Shown here piece by piece: positions 7,772 through 36,687 of a stretch of 64,000 nucleotides of DNA. Numbering within the stretch: position 1 is the stretch's first letter; the number at the start of each line of letters is the position of its first letter. Made by a program: the position numbers and the translations under genes. The notes under the pieces were generated by a model. It worked only from the letters and a program-made list of their open reading frames with translations, was not told the origin of the DNA and did no database searches. Origin of the DNA: Streptomyces sp. WZ-12 (GTDB taxonomy: Bacteria; Actinomycetota; Actinomycetes; Streptomycetales; Streptomycetaceae); the NCBI RefSeq assembly GCF_028898845.1, contig NZ_CP118574.1, positions 1,550,001 to 1,614,000 of the forward strand. The letters run 5' to 3'.

Positions 7772-8641
7772 CTATGGCGTGTCCGGGCGCGGCAGGCCGA
7801 TGGGGTTGGGGAACGGCAGCAGGTCCGCGGCGAGGACGCGGCGGGCGAGGGGGGTCAGCAGTTCCAGGAGGTGATCGCTCTCCGCGGGCGGGAGGGGGCG
7901 GAGCAAGCGGGCGGCCAGGCGGTCGGTGTCCTCCTCGATGCGGGTGCGTGCGCTTCGGCCGAGGGCGGTGGCGGCACCATGGGCATCGACGAGGTTCCGG
8001 GCGCGCAGGCGGTCCGTGGCGGCGGCCCATTCCTCTTCGGTCCAGCCGCGGTCCACCCGCATCGTGTCCCGTGGCACGCGCCCGGTGGCGGCGGCGAGCA
8101 CCAGCGCCTCACAGGCGTCCAACTCCCGGTCGGCGAGCACGGCCAGGTGGACATCGCCCCGGAACTCCCGCAGTGTGGTGGCCAGTTGCCACAGCCGCTC
8201 CACGGGGTCGGCCTGGTCGCGTAGCGCGCGGTTGGCGGCGAAGAGCGGGCGGGCGGTGTCGGGAGCGTTGTCAACGAGCGCCTGGAGGCGGGGCAGGAGC
8301 GCGGTGGCGGACCGGTCCAGGCCCGGGTGGATGGCGCGGAGCGCGCGGGCGGCGCGGGTGCCGCGTTCGCCGAGGACACGGTCGGGGCTGACGATGTTCC
8401 AGGCAGCGGGCAGCGCACGGGCCACCATGCAGGGGGCGAACACGCCGAGCACGGAAGTGGCGAGGGCGGGGGCGACTGCGCCGAGGGGCGCGATACGGGT
8501 GGCGAAGTAGCCCATCCAGAAGCCCTTGAGGCCGAGGTCCTTGCCCAGCGCCCGGCAGTCGTCGTCGAAGTAGCAGACGGCGTGCAGCGGTTCGGTTGCC
8601 AGCCAGAGCGATCGTGCGCGCTGTGCGGTGCGCGGTTCCAT
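7772..8641 (-). CDS. SCO6745/SalK-type helix-turn-helix family protein
   Basis: A 289-residue protein of the actinobacterial family often annotated SCO6745-like. The N-terminal signature LATEPLHAVCYFDDDC, KGFWMGYFATRIAPLG and NIVSPDRVLGERG is conserved in that family. It is followed by WTEEEWAAATDRLRARNLVDA and TALGRSARTRIEEDTDRLA, which read as a winged-helix unit. The molecular role is not established. The ATG at 8641 was chosen because it opens the conserved region (MEPRTAQRARSLWLATEPLH); GAGGAG lies 13 bases upstream, slightly far. Codons upstream of it are low-complexity. It is divergent from the S41 protease gene. Confidence 0.75.
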   Translation of the reverse strand: MEPRTAQRARSLWLATEPLHAVCYFDDDCRALGKDLGLKGFWMGYFATRIAPLGAVAPALATSVLGVFAPCMVARALPAAWNIVSPDRVLGERGTRAARALRAIHPGLDRSATALLPRLQALVDNAPDTARPLFAANRALRDQADPVERLWQLATTLREFRGDVHLAVLADRELDACEALVLAAATGRVPRDTMRVDRGWTEEEWAAATDRLRARNLVDAHGAATALGRSARTRIEEDTDRLAARLLRPLPPAESDHLLELLTPLARRVLAADLLPFPNPIGLPRPDTP

Positions 8642-13191: not shown

Positions 13192-13704
13192 ATGACCAAG
13201 CCCGCGCCCACGCCCTCCGCCACGCCCACCCCCGAACCCGCCACCCCCGGCATCCCCGACTCCGAGCTGCTCCGCCTGGACCACCAGGTCTGTTTCTCCC
13301 TGCACGCCGCCTCGCGCGCGTTCGGGAGCGTCTACCGGGACGCCCTGAAGGGGTTGGGTCTGACCTACCCCCAATACCTGGTGATGCTGGTCCTGTGGGA
13401 GCACGGGCCGGAGCCGGTGAAGCGCATCGGCGAGCGGCTCCGGCTGGATTCCGGGACGCTCTCCCCGCTGCTCAAGCGCCTGGAGGCGGCGGGCCTGGTG
13501 GAACGGGAGCGCAGCCCCGAGGACGAGCGGTCGGTGATCATCCGGCTGACCCACGCCGGCACGGAGCTGCGCGCGCGGGCACTGCCGGTGCCGCGCCGGA
13601 TGCTGGCCGCCACCGGCCTCACCGTCGAGGAACTCCGCACGCTGCGCGGCCTGTTGGGGCGGGTCACCAGCGCGCTGGACGAGGCGTCGCACGGCGAATC
13701 CTGA
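13192..13704 (+). CDS. ohrR: MarR-family peroxide-sensing repressor OhrR
   Basis: A 170-residue MarR-family regulator. After a Pro/Thr-rich N-terminal 20 residues comes LRLDHQVCFSLHAASRAFG, where Cys34 is in the position of the reactive cysteine of OhrR. The winged helix follows: YPQYLVMLVLWEHGPEPVKR, LRLDSGTLSPLLKRLEAAGLVERERSPEDERSVIIRLT. Oxidation of that Cys by organic hydroperoxides releases OhrR from DNA in known homologues. It is divergent from ohr with palindromes between. I chose the ATG at 13192; the in-frame start at 13135 lies inside the operator. Confidence 0.9.
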   Translation: MTKPAPTPSATPTPEPATPGIPDSELLRLDHQVCFSLHAASRAFGSVYRDALKGLGLTYPQYLVMLVLWEHGPEPVKRIGERLRLDSGTLSPLLKRLEAAGLVERERSPEDERSVIIRLTHAGTELRARALPVPRRMLAATGLTVEELRTLRGLLGRVTSALDEASHGES

Positions 13705-14005
13705 CGAAACCTGAGGAACCCGGCGTCGGCGGGCGCCCGCGGACGGCGACCCGCACCGATCTGCGTACAGCCCGTGCCCCGCGGGCGGTTGCGGCGTTAG
13801 ACAGCGGGCCGCCCCACGGTGTGCGCGACCCGGGAAGGGGCCCCTCCCTCACTTCGGTGCGCCCATCACCCCATCGAGTTACCACGGTTGGGGAGCGCCT
13901 AGAACAAAGGCGTATAAAGGGTGGCCAAACCAGCCGGAGCCACCGGCGAATTCCCGCCCAGGACACGGTTGGCAGCAACGCCTACGAGCAGCGGAGGAGC
14001 GCCAC
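13705..14005. other. Intergenic region with a candidate promoter for the ACP operon
   Basis: About 300 bases. TTGGGG (13888-13893) and TATAAA (13913-13918) are 19 bases apart and could be the -35 and -10 of the operon that starts at 14006. A small imperfect hairpin CGCCT/AGGCG sits between them at about 13896-13912. AGCGGAGGAG just before 14006 is the ribosome site. No gene is seen. Confidence 0.4.
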
Positions 14006-14239
14006 GTGAACGCGGCAGAAGTCGTCAACACCTTGCTGGAGGAGCGGTTTGGGGTCGCGCCCGCCGAGCTCACCGCGGACACCGCGCTGCGCAGCCTGCG
14101 GCTGGACTCCCTCGCTCTGGAGGAGCTCCGGGTACTCATCGAGGAGCGGCTCGACATCGACCTCGAAGAGGTGTCGCTGACCTCCCGCGACACCGTGGGG
14201 CAGTTGGTGGCGGCAGTCGACGGCGAAGTCGCGGCGTGA
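14006..14239 (+). CDS. Acyl carrier protein
   Basis: A 77-residue acyl carrier protein. The phosphopantetheine attachment site is Ser35 in SLRLDSLALEEL, a DSL motif as in type II fatty acid and polyketide carriers. The flanking helices LLEERFGV and LIEERLDIDLEEV are typical. It starts with GTG at 14006 behind GGAGGAG. Its stop overlaps the start of the ketosynthase gene by 4 bases (GTGA), so the two are translationally coupled. It is not in a fab cluster, since no fabD, fabH or primary fabF is nearby. It therefore belongs to a specialised acyl pathway. Confidence 0.92.
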   Translation: MNAAEVVNTLLEERFGVAPAELTADTALRSLRLDSLALEELRVLIEERLDIDLEEVSLTSRDTVGQLVAAVDGEVAA

Positions 14240-15477
14240 CGGCCCGTCAGAAGCCGTTCGCCGCGGCCGTGACCGGACTGGGCCTGGTCACCGCGGCGGG
14301 CGTGGGGACGAAGGCCACCTGGCACTCGGTCACCCATGACGTGGTGCCCAGCAATGTGACGCACCAGGCCGAACTGGCCGATCTGCCCTGCGACTTCATG
14401 TACACAGCAGCCGATCTGGACCCCACCGCGCTGCTCGGGGTGGCCACCCAGAGGTTGATGGACCGCTTCTCCCAACTCGCCGTGATCGCCGCCCGGGAGG
14501 CGGTCCAGGACGCCGGGCTGGACCCGGAGACCTGGGACAGCGGCCGGGTCGCGGTGGTGATCGGCTCCGCCCACGGCGGATTGCCGTTCTACGACCAGCA
14601 GTCCGCGACGATGGCCGGGCGCGGTGCCCGTCGGGTCTCCCCCAAGCTGGCCCCGCTGTCCGTCGTCAACAGCGCGGCCAGCAGCGTCTGCATGGATCTT
14701 GGGGCGCACGGCCCCAGCCTGGGAGTGGCGACGGCCTGTTCGTCCGGGACCGTCGCGGTGGGCACCGCGCACCAGTTGTTGCGCGCCGGGGCCTGCGACA
14801 TCGCCATCGCGGGCGGTGCAGAGTCGGTGCTCTCCCGGTTGCTGATCGCCAGCGCCTGCCAGATGAGGGCGGTCTCCACCCGGCGGGACGATCCCACCGC
14901 GGCCTGCCGCCCCTTCGACGTGGACCGGGACGGCTTCGTCGTCGGCGAGGGCGCGGGGCTGCTGGTGCTGGAGCGGCCGGAGCACGCGCAGGCCCGGCGG
15001 GCGCCGATCCGCGCGCGGATCGCCGGCTACGGAGCGTCCAGCGACGCGTACGCGGCGGTGGCGCCGGACCCGGAGGGGCAGGGCATCGAGCGGGCGTTGC
15101 GCAGCGCGCTCACGGACGCGGACGTCATGCCCGGCGAGGTGGGGCACGTGAACGCGCACGGCACGTCGACGGTGTTGAACGACCGGATCGAGGCGGCGAT
15201 GTTGCGCCGGGTGCTCGGCGAGCAGCCGTCGGTGACGTCGACGAAGGCGATGACCGGGCACACGCTCGGCGCCGCGGGCGGGATCGAGACCGCCCTGACC
15301 GTGCTGGCGCTGGAGCAGCAGTTGGTGCCGCCGACCGCCAACCTCACGGTGCCCGACCCCAGGATCCCGGTCGATGTGGTGCATGCCGAGGCCCGTCAGG
15401 CGGCGTTCGACTGCGCGGTCAAGACGTCCCTGGGGTTCGGCGGCCACAACGCGGCGCTCGTCCTGACCCGCGGCTAG
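14236..15477 (+). CDS. Beta-ketoacyl-ACP synthase (FabF/KAS II type), specialised
   Basis: A 413-residue condensing enzyme of the KAS I/II family. The full catalytic set is present: Cys168 in VATACSSGT, His308 in NAHGTST, Lys337 in TSTKAMTGH and His342 in TGHTLGAAGG. The C-terminal SLGFGGHNAALVL is also conserved, so it should catalyse decarboxylative condensation rather than act as a chain-length factor. Its N-terminus (ARQKPFAAAVTGLGLVTAAG) is unlike housekeeping FabF, and the region HAGGLPFYD and EVAC-type motifs are divergent. The GTG at 14236 overlaps the ACP stop. The alpha/beta hydrolase gene follows after 50 bases. The product is unknown. Confidence 0.88.
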   Translation: MTARQKPFAAAVTGLGLVTAAGVGTKATWHSVTHDVVPSNVTHQAELADLPCDFMYTAADLDPTALLGVATQRLMDRFSQLAVIAAREAVQDAGLDPETWDSGRVAVVIGSAHGGLPFYDQQSATMAGRGARRVSPKLAPLSVVNSAASSVCMDLGAHGPSLGVATACSSGTVAVGTAHQLLRAGACDIAIAGGAESVLSRLLIASACQMRAVSTRRDDPTAACRPFDVDRDGFVVGEGAGLLVLERPEHAQARRAPIRARIAGYGASSDAYAAVAPDPEGQGIERALRSALTDADVMPGEVGHVNAHGTSTVLNDRIEAAMLRRVLGEQPSVTSTKAMTGHTLGAAGGIETALTVLALEQQLVPPTANLTVPDPRIPVDVVHAEARQAAFDCAVKTSLGFGGHNAALVLTRG

Positions 15478-15527
15478 CCGGTCCGGGCGCGCCCGTTCGT
15501 ATCGAGCCTCTCCAAGAAGGAAGCAGC

Positions 15528-16421
15528 ATGTCCGAGGAAGTGATCCGCTCCTTGTCGGTGGGCGGGGTGTCGTACGCGTACCGGGTGCTGCGGCGGCCGG
15601 AGCGGTGCACCGAGCCCGTGCTGGTGCTCGGCGGTGCGTTGCAGGGGATGTTCGGCTGGCCGCAGATGGACGACAAGCTGGGGCCGGTGACGGAGGTGGT
15701 GACCGCGGATCTGCCCGGGATGGGCGGTGCGGAGCCGCTGCCGCCGGGGCCGAGCGTAGCGGTGCTGTGCGCGGCGATCCTGGGGATCATCGACGATCTC
15801 GGCGCCCCCCGGGTCAACCTCTTCGGCTTCTCCTACGGGGCGGGGCTGGCCTTCGAGTGCGCCCGACGGTTTCCGGGGCGGATCGCCCGGCTCGCGCTGG
15901 GCGGGGTGCCGGCGCACATCAGCAAGGCGCAGGTGGCGCACTGGCGGCGGGCCACGGCGCGACTGACGGAGGGGGACGCCGACGCCTTCGCGACGATGGC
16001 GGCCGAGGGGCTGCTCTGCCGGGACGAGGGCCGGACGGTCGTCCGGCGGGAGCTGGCGTTCCGCTATGTGCGGCGGTCGATGCTCCAGGCGGCGCTGCGC
16101 TCCCCGCACGCGGTGGACTCGCTGCGCCGGGCGCTGACCGACCGCCCGGACTTCTCGGGGGGCCTGTCCGGCATCCCCACCCTCGTCTTCAGCGGTGAGC
16201 ACGACACGGTGACCTCGCCGGCCCGGCAGCGCGATTTCGCGGCGACGATCGCGGGCAGCCGCTTTCTGACCATTCCGGACGCGGACCACTGGGTGGTGCT
16301 GGAACGCCCGGACGAGGTGGCGGAGTTGGCGGCTCGCTTCTTCACGGACCGCCCGTTGGAGACGACGGGCCGGGCGGGCACGCAGAGTGCGGGGACGCGC
16401 GCGGACGCGACCTGTGCATGA
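15528..16421 (+). CDS. Alpha/beta-fold hydrolase, third gene of the ACP-ketosynthase operon
   Basis: A 297-residue alpha/beta hydrolase with a complete triad: Ser102 in FGFSYGAGLA, Asp226 in FSGEHDTV and His254 in DADHWVV. The oxyanion region is LGGALQGMFGW. It has no signal peptide. The ATG at 15528 follows AAGGAAG. Being 50 bases downstream of the ketosynthase on the same strand, it could release or cleave the product from the carrier protein as a type II thioesterase, or form a lactone or ester. That role is inference. The C-terminal 25 residues are Thr/Ala-rich and probably disordered. Confidence 0.85.
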   Translation: MSEEVIRSLSVGGVSYAYRVLRRPERCTEPVLVLGGALQGMFGWPQMDDKLGPVTEVVTADLPGMGGAEPLPPGPSVAVLCAAILGIIDDLGAPRVNLFGFSYGAGLAFECARRFPGRIARLALGGVPAHISKAQVAHWRRATARLTEGDADAFATMAAEGLLCRDEGRTVVRRELAFRYVRRSMLQAALRSPHAVDSLRRALTDRPDFSGGLSGIPTLVFSGEHDTVTSPARQRDFAATIAGSRFLTIPDADHWVVLERPDEVAELAARFFTDRPLETTGRAGTQSAGTRADATCA

Positions 16422-16862
16422 GGAGCGGGCCCGGCGCGACGGATCGTAGCCGGGTGACCGCGTAGCGGCGGGGTCGGTGTCGCCCGGGAGGGGCGGACCG
16501 GCCCCGTCGGGCTGTGAGCCAGGCAACAAACTGCCCTGTTCCGAGGGGCCTTTGAGGGGCCCCGGCGGTGATGCCGGGCACGCGACGTACGTCACGTACG
16601 ACCCGGGCTAGTCGAGTGCGCGGCGGCGCGGCGCCGGAATTTCCGGCCCCATAGCGGACATCTCGCCCGAACACACGAAGATGGGTAGTACACGGCATCA
16701 TTGCCTCCATCCCGGGCCGGCGCTAACCATGTTTCCGGAAGCACCGAGAACGAGCCTGCGGACTCCGCCAGAGCGGCGAGCGCGGGACTGACCCTCGGCC
16801 CCCGAGAAGCCACCGATGGCCATCTCCCCCCGCCACCAAGCCCTGGAAGAGGTCACCTCCGC
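16422..16862 (+). promoter_or_regulatory. Conserved promoter and leader of the first transglycosylase-like gene
   Basis: This 440-base gap has no gene but matches the region upstream of the paralog at 18458. Shared blocks are GGGCACGCGACG.ACGTCACGTACGA near 16573-16605, the pattern GGACAT..CGCC....C.CACGA.GA.GGGTAGTACA at 16656-16692, CATTGCC near 16700, TAACCATG at 16726-16733, and GGAAGAGGTCACC before the ATG. GTAGTAC is 178 bases from the ATG here and 177 in the paralog. This may be a promoter with a long structured 5' leader. Confidence 0.6.
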
Positions 16863-17561
16863 ATGCCGATGCCCAATTTCTCCCTGCCCAGTACCGTCCG
16901 CCTCAGCCGCACGCACAAGATCTCCGCGGCGTTGGTGGCCTCCGCGAGCTGCGCTGCTGCGCTGGCCATGACGGCGGCCCCGAGCCACGCGGACGCCCCC
17001 GCCGCGCGGGCCTCATCCGTCGTGAAGCCGGTCGGCGCCGACGGCCTGCCGGTCGCCGCGAAGGACAACGCCGGTCAGGACAAGGCCCAGGACCACGCGA
17101 TCACCGCGTCGGTCTCGGACGGCCTGAAGGTGACCTCGCTCGACCAGCAGGGTCACGCCGCGCAGCAGGCCGCCAACCGCTCCACGGAGCGCAAGGAGAT
17201 CACCAAGCAGGCGCCGAAGGCCGCCGCGCCGAAGCAGTACACCAACAACCTCGACGGCTGGATCCGCGAGGCCCTGGACATCATGAAGTCCAAGGGCATC
17301 CCCGGCAGCTACCACGGCCTGCACCGCAACATCATGCGGGAGTCCAGCGGCAACCCGTACGCGATCAACAACTGGGACATCAACGCCCGCAACGGCATAC
17401 CCTCCAAGGGTCTGCTGCAGGTGATCCAGCCCACGTTCAACACGTACCACGTCAAGGGCACGCCGCACGACCTGTACGACCCGGTGGCCAACATCACCGC
17501 CGCCGCCAACTACGCGGCCCACCGCTACGGCTCCATCGACAACGTCAACTCCGCCTACTGA
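16863..17561 (+). CDS. Secreted transglycosylase SLT-domain protein (paralog 1)
   Basis: A 232-residue exported protein. Residues 1-44 are a signal peptide (Arg/His n-region, hydrophobic SAALVASASCAAALAMTAA, cleavage near SHA-DA). A linker of about 80 residues rich in Ala/Lys/Gln follows. The C-terminal domain has the soluble lytic transglycosylase signature: NIMRESSGNPYA with catalytic Glu160, then SKGLLQVIQPTFNTYH and ITAAANYAAHRYGSID. It should cleave the MurNAc-GlcNAc bond of peptidoglycan outside the membrane. It is about 75% identical over the catalytic domain to the gene at 18458, with which it shares upstream sequence. GGAAGAGG lies about 10 bases before the ATG. Confidence 0.88.
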   Translation: MPMPNFSLPSTVRLSRTHKISAALVASASCAAALAMTAAPSHADAPAARASSVVKPVGADGLPVAAKDNAGQDKAQDHAITASVSDGLKVTSLDQQGHAAQQAANRSTERKEITKQAPKAAAPKQYTNNLDGWIREALDIMKSKGIPGSYHGLHRNIMRESSGNPYAINNWDINARNGIPSKGLLQVIQPTFNTYHVKGTPHDLYDPVANITAAANYAAHRYGSIDNVNSAY

Positions 17562-17633
17562 GGCACCAGTCCGCGCCGGGACGCCCCCAGGCGACTCCCG
17601 GCCGGCACCCGCGCCGCATCGGCGCGCGCACCC

Positions 17634-17682
17634 CAACGGCAATGGCCCTGCCCGCACTTCGCGGGCAGGGCCATTGCCGTTG
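17634..17682. terminator. Bidirectional terminator, 22-bp perfect stem
   Basis: Perfect 22-bp inverted repeat (CAACGGCAATGGCCCTGCCC and on) with the 5-base loop ACTTC. It lies between the 3' ends of the transglycosylase gene (+) and the His-rich peptide gene (-). Confidence 0.9.
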
Positions 17683-17689
17683 TCGCGTG

Positions 17690-17902
17690 TCAGTACATGT
17701 GGTCATGGCGCGACGGGCCTCCGAAGAGGACGTCGAGCACGTGCCCGGCGATGCGGAGCCCCTCGCGCTCCCGGGGCGTGAGGCGGTGCTGGTGGTGGCC
17801 GTGTTCGCGGTGGTGGTCGACGGGGGCCGCGGCGGCGGCGCCGGTGGCGAGGAATCCGGTGGCGACGAGGCCGGCGAGCACGACGGCGATGCGACGGAAC
17901 AT
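17690..17902 (-). CDS. Small secreted His-rich protein
   Basis: A 70-residue precursor. Residues 1-26 form a signal peptide (MFRRIAVVLAGLVATGFLAT, then GAAAAAP). The mature part of about 44 residues is His-rich (VDHHREHGHHQHRLTPRERE, end SRHDHMY), suggesting metal binding, although no family is recognised. The ATG at 17902 is preceded by AAGGGAG at good spacing. The frame stays open upstream but without coding character. It is a single gene, convergent with the first transglycosylase. Confidence 0.65.
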   Translation of the reverse strand: MFRRIAVVLAGLVATGFLATGAAAAAPVDHHREHGHHQHRLTPREREGLRIAGHVLDVLFGGPSRHDHMY

Positions 17903-18457
17903 GAGCACTCCCTTACGGTGAGTGGTGGTTGTGGGTGGTCTCACTCTCAGGGACCCGCCGTCCCGCCGCCTTTCGACAGCCCGGACGCTGCTACGAACGG
18001 ACGAGCGGCGCCGCCGTATCGATGGACCCGGGGAATCCGACCCCCTTCCGACGCTTCGCGGGGGTGCGAAGTAGGGGGCCGCGGACGGCAATTCGCGATG
18101 TGACCCAGGTAACTCGCAAGGGGTTCAAGGGGGGTCCGCGAGGGCCCCGGGAGGTGACCCCGGGCACGCGACGCACGTCACGTACGAGGCCCACTAGTCG
18201 ACGCCGAGGCGATCCAGGCCCACAAACAAGGGCCCAAAACTATCCCATTCCGGACATTGCGCCTCATCTCACGATGAGGGGTAGTACAGGGGGTCATTGC
18301 CACCCGTCGGGTTGGCCGTTAACCATGGATCTCGTCGCACCGAGAGCGCGCCGCACCTCCCGCCCCCAAGGGCAATCCGCGGCCGAGAACCTCCGGTCCG
18401 AACGCGCCAACGATGGCCGCCTCCCCGTTCCCCGTACCTGGAAGAGGTCACCCCCGC
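17903..18457 (+). promoter_or_regulatory. Conserved promoter and leader of the second transglycosylase-like gene
   Basis: From about 18096 this region repeats the blocks seen before 16863: TGTGACCCAGGTAAC, GGGCACGCGACGCACGTCAC (near 18160-18185), GGACATTGCGCC..CACGATGAGGGGTAGTACA up to about 18289, GTTAACCATGG near 18317, CGATGGCC near 18412, and GGAAGAGGTCACC at 18440. The first 190 bases (17903-18095) hold the promoter side of the His-rich gene and nothing else I can name. Confidence 0.6.
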
Positions 18458-19114
18458 ATGCCTAGTTTCACCCTGCCCCGCGCTGCCCGAATCACCCGCA
18501 TCACCCGTACCCACAAGGTCGCCGTGGCCGTTCTGGCCGCCGCCGGCGCCACCACGGGCCTGGCCGTCACCGCGGCCCCGGGCAACGCCACGAGCACGGC
18601 CGCGCACGCCCCCGCCGCGGTCAAGCCGGTGAACGCCAACGGAATGCCCGCCACGGCCGACAGCGCGACCCAGCGCCCGATCCGCGCCTCCGTCGCGGAC
18701 AACGCGAAGGTCACCGCCGTCGCCCAGCAGGACCGCGCCGCCCAGCAGGCCGCCAGCCGCTCCGCCGACCGCGCGTCCGCCCCGAACAAGTACACCGACA
18801 ACCTCGACGGCTGGATCCGCCAGTCCCTGGACATCATGAAGTCCAAGGGCATCCCCGGCAGCTACGACGGCCTGCACCGCAACATCATGCGGGAGTCCAG
18901 CGGCAACCCCAACGCCCAGAACGACTGGGACATCAACGCCAAGAACGGCATACCCTCCAAGGGCCTGCTCCAGGTGATCCAGCCCACGTTCGACACCTAC
19001 CACGTGTCCGGCACCGCCGATAAGCTCACCGACCCGGTGGCCAACATCACCGCCGCCGCCAACTACGCGGCCCACCGCTACGGCTCCATCGACAACGTCA
19101 ACTCGGCGTACTGA
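18458..19114 (+). CDS. Secreted transglycosylase SLT-domain protein (paralog 2)
   Basis: A 218-residue paralog of the protein at 16863, with the same architecture: signal peptide to about residue 43 (KVAVAVLAAAGATTGLAVTA), a shorter Ala/Gln linker, then the lytic transglycosylase domain. NIMRESSGNPNA carries catalytic Glu146, followed by SKGLLQVIQPTFDTYH and the identical C-terminus RYGSIDNVNSAY. The conserved end and shared upstream region point to a tandem-type duplication with the His-rich gene caught between. The linker and signal peptide have diverged much more than the enzyme domain. It probably remodels peptidoglycan during growth or spore germination. Confidence 0.88.
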   Translation: MPSFTLPRAARITRITRTHKVAVAVLAAAGATTGLAVTAAPGNATSTAAHAPAAVKPVNANGMPATADSATQRPIRASVADNAKVTAVAQQDRAAQQAASRSADRASAPNKYTDNLDGWIRQSLDIMKSKGIPGSYDGLHRNIMRESSGNPNAQNDWDINAKNGIPSKGLLQVIQPTFDTYHVSGTADKLTDPVANITAAANYAAHRYGSIDNVNSAY

Positions 19115-19226
19115 GCCACCGTCGATGACGGACGTGACGCACCACGCGCACGACAACACGACCCGGCGGGGTCGATAGAGAGAACCGGCGAAGCGGCGAC
19201 ATGGCGCGTTCGCCGCTGAGCGGACG

Positions 19227-19257
19227 AGGGTCCCGGCAGTGCAACTGCCGGGACCCT
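19227..19257 (+). terminator. Terminator after the second transglycosylase gene
   Basis: Perfect 14-bp stem AGGGTCCCGGCAGT with its complement and a 3-base loop, about 110 bases after the stop codon. Confidence 0.75.
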
Positions 19258-19452
19258 TCGTCATGTGCCACAGCGCCCACAGCGAGGGCCCGTGGAGGCA
19301 GCCCAGACGGGTGAGATGGCCCGGCCGGACGGCGGACCGCGAGCCTGTTGAGCCATGGAACCTGCCAATTCAGCGTATAAGTCATTTCATCGGCAGATTC
19401 CTGCTCAAAAGCTGCCGGCACTGACTCGACCGAAGTCCTTCGGAGGCACGCG
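19258..19452. other. Remainder of the gap before the GH25 gene
   Basis: Together with the terminator this completes a 338-base stretch without genes (19115-19452). GTATAAG at about 19374-19380 is an AT-rich spot that could be a -10 element for the lysozyme gene, but no matching -35 is convincing. GGAGG precedes the ATG. Confidence 0.3.
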
Positions 19453-20337
19453 ATGCCCTTGCGCAGATCCGCACCGGCCCGGCGCACGGTCCGCCTGGCG
19501 GCCGGCTCTCTCGTCTCACTCGTCACCGTGCTCGCACTGCCCCTCACGCTGCCCGACACCGCGACCGCCACGCCGGAGGCCGGGAAGACCCCCGCCCACC
19601 CCGAGCAGGACTGGATGGGCTCGACCATCACCGAGCACGAGGGCGTCGAACGCTCCGGCGGTTCGGAACCGCGCGGGGCCTGGTCGCACAAGACCGTGGC
19701 CGGCGTCGACGTCTCCAGTCACAACCGCAACGTCGGCTGGGGGAAGCTGCGGCGGATGGGCGTGCGGTTCGCCTACGTCAAGGCCACCGAGGGGACCAGC
19801 TACAAGAACCCCTACTTCAACCAGCAGTACCGCGGCTCGTACCACGCCGGCATGATCCACGGCGCATACCACTTCGCACTGCCCGACCACTCCGGCGGCG
19901 CCTCGCAGGCGCGGTTCTTCGCGCACGAGGGCGGTGGTTGGTCAGCGGACGGCCGGACCCTGCCGGGCGCGCTCGACATGGAGTACAACCCCTATGGCGC
20001 GACCTGCTACGGCAAGTCCCATGGGGAGATGGTCCGTTGGATCGCCGACTTCGTGCGCGCCTACCGGGCGGAGACCGGGCGGGACGCGGTGATCTACACC
20101 TCGACGAACTGGTGGAAGCGGTGCACCGGCAACTCCGGCCGGTTCGGGCGGACCAACCCGCTGTGGATCCCGCGCTACGGCCCGTCCGTGGGGAGCCTGC
20201 CGGCCGGGTGGCGGTTCCACAGCATCTGGCAGCACACCTCCTCGGGGCACACCGTCGGCGACCACAACCGGTTCAACGGCCCGCTCAGCAGGCTGAAGGT
20301 GCTGGCCAACGGCGCTACCGGCGAGGACGACGACTGA
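19453..20337 (+). CDS. Secreted GH25 lysozyme (1,4-beta-N-acetylmuramidase)
   Basis: A 294-residue exported muramidase. A twin-Arg-flavoured signal peptide (RRSAPARRTVRLAAGSLVSL, cleavage near TATA-TPEA) is followed by the GH25 barrel: VAGVDVSSHNRNV with Asp86, RFAYVKATEGTSYKNPYF, GAYHFALPDHSGGASQARFF, and the catalytic pair Asp175/Glu177 in ALDMEYNPYG. WIPRYG and IWQHTSSG close the barrel. It hydrolyses peptidoglycan glycan strands, as in the cellosyl-type muramidases of Streptomyces. Size and domain content match single-domain members. The ATG at 19453 follows GGAGG. It continues the run of cell-wall enzymes from 16.8 kb. Confidence 0.92.
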   Translation: MPLRRSAPARRTVRLAAGSLVSLVTVLALPLTLPDTATATPEAGKTPAHPEQDWMGSTITEHEGVERSGGSEPRGAWSHKTVAGVDVSSHNRNVGWGKLRRMGVRFAYVKATEGTSYKNPYFNQQYRGSYHAGMIHGAYHFALPDHSGGASQARFFAHEGGGWSADGRTLPGALDMEYNPYGATCYGKSHGEMVRWIADFVRAYRAETGRDAVIYTSTNWWKRCTGNSGRFGRTNPLWIPRYGPSVGSLPAGWRFHSIWQHTSSGHTVGDHNRFNGPLSRLKVLANGATGEDDD

Positions 20338-34721: not shown

Positions 34722-35633
34722 CTACGCGGAGCGTCGGCGTCGGGCCCCGCGTGGTACCGGGCGGGCCCGGGACGGATCGAGCAGCGGTGCGTGCAGATCG
34801 CCGTAGCGCTCGCGGCGGGCGGCGATCTCGCCGAAGAGGAAGGTGAGTTGGTTCGGCGCGGTGCAGTCGGTCACCTCGTCCCAGGTGACCGGGGTGGAGA
34901 CGGTCGGGAGGGGGCGGGCGCGCAGGGTGTAGGCGACCGCGGTGGTCTTGGCGGCGGCGTTCTGCGAGAAGTCGATGAAGACCCTGCCGGGCCGCAGCGC
35001 CCGGTCCATCTTGTGCGTGACCAGCTCCCCCAGGGCCGCGCCGGCCTCGACGGCGAGCGTCCGGGCGTAGGCGGTGGTGTGGTCGGCGGGGGTGGGCTCG
35101 ACCGGCACGACGAGGTGCAGTCCCTTGGAGCCGCTGGTCTTGGCGTAGGCGTCGAGGCCGTCGGCGGCCAGCCGGTCGCGCAGCCAGCGGGCGGCGGCGC
35201 AGCACTCGACGACGGTGGCGGGCGCGCCCGGGTCCAGGTCGAAGACGAGCCGGTCGGCCAGGCCCGGGGCGTCGCAGGTCCACTGCGGGGCGTGCAGCTC
35301 GACGACGAGGTTGGCCGCCCAGACCAGCGAGGCGAGGTCCTGGAGCACCACCTGTCGGGCGGGCCCCGACCTCGAATGGGGGACCTCGCAGCTCGCCACC
35401 CAAGGGGGCGCGCCGGGCGGCACGTTCTTGGTGAAGAAGCGTTGGCCGTCGGGTCCGTCGGGATAGCGGAGGAAGGACACCGGTCGGCCGTGGAGGTGTG
35501 GCAGCAGCGCGTCCGCGGTGGTGGTGCAGTAGTGCAGCACCTCACCCTTGGTGGTGCCGGTCTCGGGATAGAGGACCTTGTCGAGGTGGGTCAGCGTCAG
35601 GCGCCGCCCCTCCACGACGGTGATCGGCGACAT
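34722..35633 (-). CDS. ligD: LigD polymerase-domain protein for non-homologous end joining
   Basis: A 303-residue stand-alone PolDom/primase of the archaeo-eukaryotic primase superfamily, as found in bacterial NHEJ. DLVFDLDPG-like LVFDLDPGAPATVVECCAAA holds the metal-binding aspartates, KTSGSKGLHLVVP the next motif, VFIDFSQNAAAKTTAVAYTL the last. There is no ligase or nuclease domain, so a separate ligase is needed. It fills gaps at broken ends bridged by Ku. The start MSPITVVEGRRL at 35633 faces the ku gene across only 31 bases. At 35364-35388 the sequence holds a short palindrome-like insert (encoding PHSRSG). Confidence 0.9.
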   Translation of the reverse strand: MSPITVVEGRRLTLTHLDKVLYPETGTTKGEVLHYCTTTADALLPHLHGRPVSFLRYPDGPDGQRFFTKNVPPGAPPWVASCEVPHSRSGPARQVVLQDLASLVWAANLVVELHAPQWTCDAPGLADRLVFDLDPGAPATVVECCAAARWLRDRLAADGLDAYAKTSGSKGLHLVVPVEPTPADHTTAYARTLAVEAGAALGELVTHKMDRALRPGRVFIDFSQNAAAKTTAVAYTLRARPLPTVSTPVTWDEVTDCTAPNQLTFLFGEIAARRERYGDLHAPLLDPSRARPVPRGARRRRSA

Positions 35634-35664
35634 ACCATTGAGAATCCCACACAAGGGACGAACC

Positions 35665-36687
35665 ATGCGATCCATCTGGAACGGGTCCATCTCGTTTGGC
35701 CTGGTCACGATCCCGGTGAAGACCTACAGCGCCACCGACCGCACCTCGTCGGTCTCCTTCGTCCGCATCCACGAGGCGGACGGCGCGCCGATCCAGTACC
35801 GCAAGGTCTGCGAACTGGACGGCGAGGAGGTGCCGAACGAGGAGGTGGGCAAGGGGTATCAGCCGCCCGGCGACGACACCGTCGTGCCGATCACCGACGA
35901 GGACCTCTCCCGGCTGCCGGTGCCGACCGCCAAGACGCTGTCGATCCTCGCGTTCGTGGACCCCGCCGAGATCGACCCGCTCCAGTTGGACAAGGCGTAC
36001 TACCTCGGGCCCAACGGGGCCTCCGCCGTCAAGCCGTACGCCCTGCTGCGGGAGGCGCTGGAGCACCACGCGAAGGTCGCGATCGGCAGGGTGGCGCTGC
36101 GCGGGCGGGAGACGCTGGCCATGCTGCGGGCGCACGACGGGGCGCTGGTGATGCACGCGCTGCTCTGGCCGGACCAGGTGCGCCCCGCGGAGGGGATCGC
36201 ACCGGAGGACGTCAGGATCCGCGAGAACGAGATGAAGCTGGCCGAGATGCTGATGGATTCGCTGGGCGCGCTCGACCCGGCCGAACTCCACGACGACTAC
36301 CGGGAGGCGGTGGAGGAGCTCGTCGCCGCCAAGCTGGCGGGCGGCGCCCCGGTCGCCCCCGACACCGCGGCGCCCGGCGCCCGGGTCATCGATCTGACGG
36401 CGGCCCTGGAGAAGAGCGTGCGGGCCGCCCGCGGTGCCGGCGCGGACGGGGAGGCCGCCTCGGTCACCCCGATCCGGGGCCGCGGCACGGCCACCAAGAA
36501 GGCCGCGGCGAAGAAGTCGGCGCCCAAGGGGGAGCCGCGCCGCACGGCCGCGGGCGGGAAGGGCGCGACGAGCAAGACCGGAAAGGCCAACACCGGTGAG
36601 GCGGGCGGCACTTCGGCCACCACCGGGCAGAGCGCGGCGAAGAAGTCGGCGGGGGCGAAGCGGACGTCGAAGACCACCGCGACCTGA
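35665..36687 (+). CDS. ku: Ku protein, DNA double-strand-break end binding
   Basis: A 340-residue bacterial Ku homodimer subunit. The core (IWNGSISFGLVTIPVKTYSA, VSFVRIHEADGAPIQYRKVC, LDKAYYLGPNGASAVKPYAL, MHALLWPDQVRP) forms the DNA-encircling beta-barrel. Beyond residue 260 is a long Lys/Ala/Thr-rich tail (TKKAAAKKSAPKGEPRR) typical of actinobacterial Ku and thought to bind DNA. It binds broken ends and recruits the polymerase and ligase. The ATG at 35665 follows AAGGGA. It is divergently paired with the LigD-polymerase gene, sharing a 31-base promoter region. Confidence 0.95.
   Translation: MRSIWNGSISFGLVTIPVKTYSATDRTSSVSFVRIHEADGAPIQYRKVCELDGEEVPNEEVGKGYQPPGDDTVVPITDEDLSRLPVPTAKTLSILAFVDPAEIDPLQLDKAYYLGPNGASAVKPYALLREALEHHAKVAIGRVALRGRETLAMLRAHDGALVMHALLWPDQVRPAEGIAPEDVRIRENEMKLAEMLMDSLGALDPAELHDDYREAVEELVAAKLAGGAPVAPDTAAPGARVIDLTAALEKSVRAARGAGADGEAASVTPIRGRGTATKKAAAKKSAPKGEPRRTAAGGKGATSKTGKANTGEAGGTSATTGQSAAKKSAGAKRTSKTTAT

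Follow-up and report, generated by a model that had tools for sequence, protein, structure and literature searches.

Three adjacent genes of Streptomyces sp. WZ-12, coding for an acyl carrier protein (ACP), a FabF-like ketosynthase (KS) and an alpha/beta hydrolase, form a conserved unit, the parts and close linkage of which are observed across the genus. We lean towards reading this cassette as a dedicated acyl-extension-and-release unit that would make a small fatty-acid-like product with help from the host fatty acid synthase (FAS). The window, the whole stretch of DNA that was analyzed, covers 64 kb (C1:1550001-1614000 of a two-contig genome of 9.55 Mb). It contains the following features.

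13907-13921, + strand: AAGGCGTATAAAGGG element of 15 bases, with its end 84 bp upstream of the ACP start; probably a promoter or operator specific to the operon.
14006-14239, + strand: ACP of 77 aa; PF00550, 37.2 bits; phosphopantetheine Ser35 (codon at 14108); GGAGG ribosome site.
14236-15477, + strand: FabF-like KS of 413 aa; PF00109, 150 bits, and PF02801, 116 bits; Cys168, His308, His342 and Lys337.
15528-16421, + strand: alpha/beta hydrolase of 297 aa; PF00561, 75 bits; Ser102-Asp226-His254; predicted releasing enzyme.

The genes run in the order ACP, KS, hydrolase, and all three are intact and score above the Pfam cut-offs. The corrected start of the KS is the GTG at 14236, where GTGA makes a 4-base overlap with the end of the ACP gene. 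The hydrolase, which has AAGGAAG as its ribosome site, starts 50 bp past the KS stop. The first-pass annotation had described a carrier protein, a complete condensing enzyme and an alpha/beta hydrolase, and the Pfam matches together with the catalytic residues present bear this out. Against five relatives, the ACP has a dN/dS of 0.11-0.28, the KS one of 0.14-0.19 and the hydrolase, over its first 280 codons, one of 0.30-0.37, so that all three genes look to be under purifying selection. The description of the cassette as self-contained stands as well: the families searched gave no polyketide synthase (PKS) or fatty acid genes elsewhere in the window. In the profile search, the window holds a single KS-family match (PF00109) vs. 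62 genome-wide, no PF00698 acyltransferase vs. 46 genome-wide, and no PF13561 reductase (the only reductase family searched) vs. 115 genome-wide. A type II minimal PKS was considered and set aside: no chain length factor was found beside the KS, the only PF00109 match in the window.

In an even set of 199 genomes of the genus, with the KS called at E <= 1e-135, the cassette KS occurs at 42 loci in 39 genomes (about one in five of the sampled species). At 41 of the 42 loci the KS has an ACP upstream, and at 37 it is followed by an intact hydrolase; the full ACP-KS-hydrolase order, which the first-pass annotation had proposed looking for in other genomes, is present at 37. Hydrolases of at least 45% identity occur in 39 genomes, and 38 of 39 are shared with the KS genomes each way (Fisher p 1.5e-38, for genomes of one genus that are related and so not independent). 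The 45% line was set after viewing the list, and relatives of 32-41% identity (18 of 57 genomes) are left out of this count. These searches score the best 9-11 candidates per genome, and second copies may be missed. The two exceptions are a genome with the KS and no hydrolase (G121) and one in which the hydrolase occurs with a ketoacyl synthase (KAS) of type III and an ACP (G060, locus L125). Over the order, the hydrolase is found at E <= 1e-50 in 54 of 293 genomes, all within this genus (one of nine genera).

The nearest named KS loci, among the best 80 of 555 relatives, all belong to Streptomyces. At the top of these best 80, 17 named loci (L009-L025, KS identity 67-92%) include 15 with all three genes; L017 has no hydrolase and L024 (S. 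nigrescens) no ACP. When gene families were clustered over the cassette loci (with a custom ORF caller that is incomplete), the ACP, KS and hydrolase alone span most of them. Since the neighborhoods differ between loci, the cassette appears to stand alone.

Five of the 42 loci lack an intact hydrolase after the KS, and four of the genomes concerned have the hydrolase at a second ACP locus. The second locus is a full cassette in two of them (L128 in G194 and L129 in G019). In G090, one locus has ACP and KS (L150) and the other ACP and hydrolase with no KS (L130). In G082, only a remnant of the hydrolase is seen by eye at L152, and L127 has the hydrolase with a TGA inside the KS, which could be a sequencing error. 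The parts of the operon look split over two loci in G090 and G082, because one locus keeps the KS and the second keeps the hydrolase. The remaining genome (G121) has ACP and KS, with no hydrolase of the family at E 1e-40 among the matches listed (at most 11 candidates scored per genome). These losses mostly fit a working unit, with the five loci being few. The loss of most of the ACP gene in two lineages counts against that reading: at L024 (about 7930-8000) and at L149, the ACP gene is internally deleted and the KS is still open. In these lineages the KS may work with a different ACP, or the unit may be decaying. The ACP of the window scores under the cut-offs of all seven NCBIfam ACP models that it matches and is, for that reason, unlike a typical AcpP.

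The Cys-His-His catalytic set of elongating ketosynthases (FabF fold family) is present in all 40 aligned cassette KS rows, that of the window included. The FabF gate pair is Asp265 and Asn404 in E. coli numbering, according to the part of the source available (PMC7138838). In the cassette KSs, the loop-2 Asp270 is kept in 39 of 40 rows and Asn405 in 38 of 40, and the KS of the window has both; at L113, where two paired KSs are taken to be a type II PKS, the first gate position of the KS is Asn. The conservation of the gate residues suggests that the cassette KS is of the elongating type and would hand its product back to the ACP at each round. All 40 cassette rows have A or S in place of the His of FabF loop 2, which is present in 26 of the 37 other rows. 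Its loss was dropped as a cassette signature, as the genome's own FabF is without that His too.

For the KS tree, 77 aligned rows were reduced to 51, with five distant rows dropped and the 40 cassette rows thinned to 19. The 19 cassette KSs form one clade (support 100/100), which sits within a 43-row branch (100/100) of ACP-paired discrete actinobacterial KSs. The genome's own FabF (L109) falls outside that branch, on a long branch that leaves its own placement unsure. The FabF-like KS at L109 adjoins a KASIII relative and a PF00698 match, and the three are taken as the host FabF, FabH and FabD. The separation of the cassette clade from the own FabF leads us to reject the identification of the cassette KS as the housekeeping FabF of type II FAS; the grouping with that enzyme, which the first-pass annotation had set down as speaking against its proposal, is not borne out. 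Score and context agree with the tree. The KS reaches 437.1 bits on the FabF equivalog TIGR03150, below the cut-off of 493.75, and its neighbors are Ohr, OhrR, SLT and GH25 genes instead of those of a fabD-fabH-acpP-fabF operon. It passes the cut-off of the NCBIfam subfamily PRK07314 (426.9 vs. 387 bits).

The hydrolase alignment has 36 rows, that of the window included, and all of them carry Ser102, Asp226 and His254. The AlphaFold2 model (pLDDT 88.4, pTM 0.88) has as fold neighbors generic esterases, enol-lactonases, XhpG, lactonases and an esterase turned perhydrolase; enol-lactonases also occur among the NCBIfam and PDB sequence relatives. The predicted likeness to generic esterases and enol-lactonases counts against the assignment as a releasing unit.

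As an acyl-extension-and-release unit, the cassette would work as follows. The host FAS would load malonyl on the cassette ACP and supply an acyl primer. The KS, judging from its intact catalytic and gating residues, would catalyze decarboxylative condensation once or a few times, with the acyl chain passing to and from its ACP. The hydrolase, from its family and residues, would then cut the ACP thioester and liberate a small free acid; this may be a beta-keto acid, from which decarboxylation could give a methyl ketone. The operon is without the large PKS and nonribosomal peptide synthetase (NRPS) genes that usually flag biosynthetic clusters; if a dedicated product is indeed made, it would be a very small thiotemplated pathway.

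Other readings differ in the role given to the hydrolase or in the need for a special product. The hydrolase could be an editing (type II) thioesterase clearing stalled acyl-ACP, with the KS product exiting via another, unlinked enzyme. The PF00975 Thioesterase score, slightly above its cut-off (28.6 vs. 26.4 bits), and the four of 42 loci with ACP and KS but without an intact adjoining hydrolase point in that direction; however, PF00561 is by far the best family at 75 bits and the hydrolase is retained somewhere in 38 of the 39 KS genomes, and we consider an editing role rather improbable. It is just as doubtful that the enzyme is an acyltransferase or a cyclase, with the acyl chain passed to a small alcohol or amine, or closed into a lactone, instead of going to water. 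No acceptor-making gene was seen traveling with the cassette among the clustered families (from the incomplete ORF caller), and the fold shared with lactonases and with the perhydrolase, although it would suit such chemistry as do the enol-lactonases among the sequence relatives, proves no function.

The cassette might also serve as a spare set for fatty acid elongation and change the chain length of membrane lipids, with no specialized product. A releasing hydrolase would be out of place in lipid elongation, the KS clade is separate from the own FabF with a score under the FabF equivalog cut-off, and a KS at E 1e-135 is present in just 39 of 199 genomes. Despite the PRK07314 score and the seven of 42 loci that adjoin the organic peroxide genes Ohr/OhrR, we give this reading little credence.

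The AAGGCGTATAAAGGG element is present in both main branches of the cassette clade although the flanks differ (alignment of the regions before the ACP). In its own genome, it has a single match at two mismatches or fewer vs. ten for the reversed control pattern. In the 199 genomes, all 25 exact matches to AAGGCGTATAAANRG are upstream of cassette KSs, whereas with one mismatch only four of 29 are so placed and 25 are elsewhere. These 25 exact and four one-mismatch sites lie 152-585 bp before a cassette KS, and 29 of the 42 KS loci have one. Of 47 cassette loci, a set in which the named and other genomes may include the same species twice, 35 are preceded by the form GGCGTATA; nine of the twelve loci without it are deep-branching. 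The reversed control pattern likewise matches in many genomes and the one-mismatch sites are mostly elsewhere, so that the stray sites look like chance; at four of them (L157-L160), inspected by eye, no link to KAS genes was seen. The pattern was itself picked out by eye from the cassette loci, so that independent evidence comes from its absence elsewhere and not from its presence there. A scan of positions 13600-16800 turned up neither a sigma-70 promoter nor a terminator, where shuffled sequence leads one to expect 0.1 and 0.6. The 13907-13921 element, almost private to the operon, is probably the core of an operon-specific promoter or an operator. Such a nearly private element offers a direct handle on when the operon is switched on.

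The same genome has a second gene run that combines a homologous hydrolase with an ACP and a KAS.

L116 8867-6586 (G000:C1 about 7,983,600-7,985,900), - strand: KASIII-ACP-hydrolase triad; the KAS matches PF08545/PF08541.

The triad hydrolase is a paralogue, 38% identical to that of the cassette. The two runs are alike in having ACP, KAS and homologous hydrolase together, but in the triad an initiating KAS replaces the elongating one and the gene order differs. Close relatives of the L116 paralogue occur at E 1e-70 in four of the 199 genomes, the own genome included, and all four have KASIII-ACP-hydrolase (L116, L120, L122 and L183). The triads of L120, L122 and L183 are divergent from a conserved ORF of ~420 aa (custom script) that has no Pfam match in the two tested. 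Those three loci are among nine examined with hydrolases of 32-41% identity. At L121, KASIII and ACP are about 4.6 kb from the hydrolase, and at the other five (L117, L118, L119, L123 and L124) no ACP or KAS was recognized in the stretch examined, which ends early at L117. On account of these five, the partnership of the hydrolase with ACP and KAS is not universal. Where it occurs, the hydrolase-KAS-ACP partnership defines a family open to mining. One may go further and propose a genus-specific three-gene pathway under its own promoter element, making a diffusible or volatile acyl molecule (a signal, for example) with the remaining chemistry drawn from FAS, and a single hydrolase family that was paired twice, with an elongating and with an initiating KAS. 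We put this forward tentatively, as a rather unlikely extension.

The closest published logic is that of the mkp cluster, which makes alpha-methyl-KAPA in S. virginiae and of which the S. lydicus version was also expressed (PMC13336041). As described in the accessible part of that report, a discrete ACP (MkpB) and a discrete KS (MkpC) are proposed to rely on the FabD that belongs to the host FAS, and deletion of mkpC abolishes the product (PMC13336041). The cluster has seven genes, including a KASIII, a BioF-like enzyme and a BioI-like P450, and a hydrolase is not named in that portion of the text (PMC13336041). Both systems, by this description, have a discrete ACP and a discrete KS, which in the cassette are adjacent (PMC13336041). 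In neocarazostatin biosynthesis, the part of the source available describes a free-standing ACP and KAS (NzsE and NzsF) acting with a FabG homologue of fatty acid synthesis (PMC7466098). There too the ACP and KAS are free-standing as in the cassette, but the KAS is a KASIII and not FabF-like, and the acyl group goes into a carbazole and not to a hydrolase (PMC7466098). As far as these partial sources go, the cassette differs from both in having a hydrolase instead of tailoring genes, in its three-gene size, in its wide conservation and in its upstream element. No BioF-like or P450 genes occur among the Pfam-assigned neighbors of the cassette (SpoIIE, Ohr, OhrR, two SLT, GH25 and S41).

The logic of an ACP-KS pair completed by FAS is already known from mkp, as described in the available text, and the cassette would be a variant of it (PMC13336041). 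By this parallel, the statement of the first-pass annotation that the cassette must borrow from primary metabolism would be a sound inference (PMC13336041). A literature search, with several result lists partial, found no paper on an ACP-KS-hydrolase operon of such form.

In the sister clade (21 actinobacterial loci among L026-L050; L110 and L111), the KS is 47-55% identical to the cassette KS and, in many loci, an ACP directly precedes the FabF-like KS, as in the cassette. The cassette hydrolase was found at none of the 21 loci (flanks of at most 8 kb per side). Several loci hold, by eye, a KASIII-like gene or a set with aminotransferase and aldehyde dehydrogenase as at L110. At L110 (G000:C1:4811000-4824000), the ACP-KS pair occurs with a class III aminotransferase, an acyl-CoA dehydrogenase-like protein and an aldehyde dehydrogenase; a similar set (ORF families C3-C8) recurs, by eye, in up to ten other loci.

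The cassette is preceded by Ohr and an OhrR-like MarR regulator and followed by two SLT transglycosylases and a GH25 lysozyme. Ohr and GH25 adjoin the cassette at only seven of the 42 loci, all with a KS at least 80% identical to that of the window; this adjacency therefore reflects a local neighborhood and not function, and a link to peroxide defense was rejected. The two SLT genes and the GH25 gene stand in a row at 16701-20337 of the window, an arrangement also present in several close relatives. Further along, at 34722-36687, divergent genes for a LigD primase-polymerase and for Ku form a bacterial end-joining pair.
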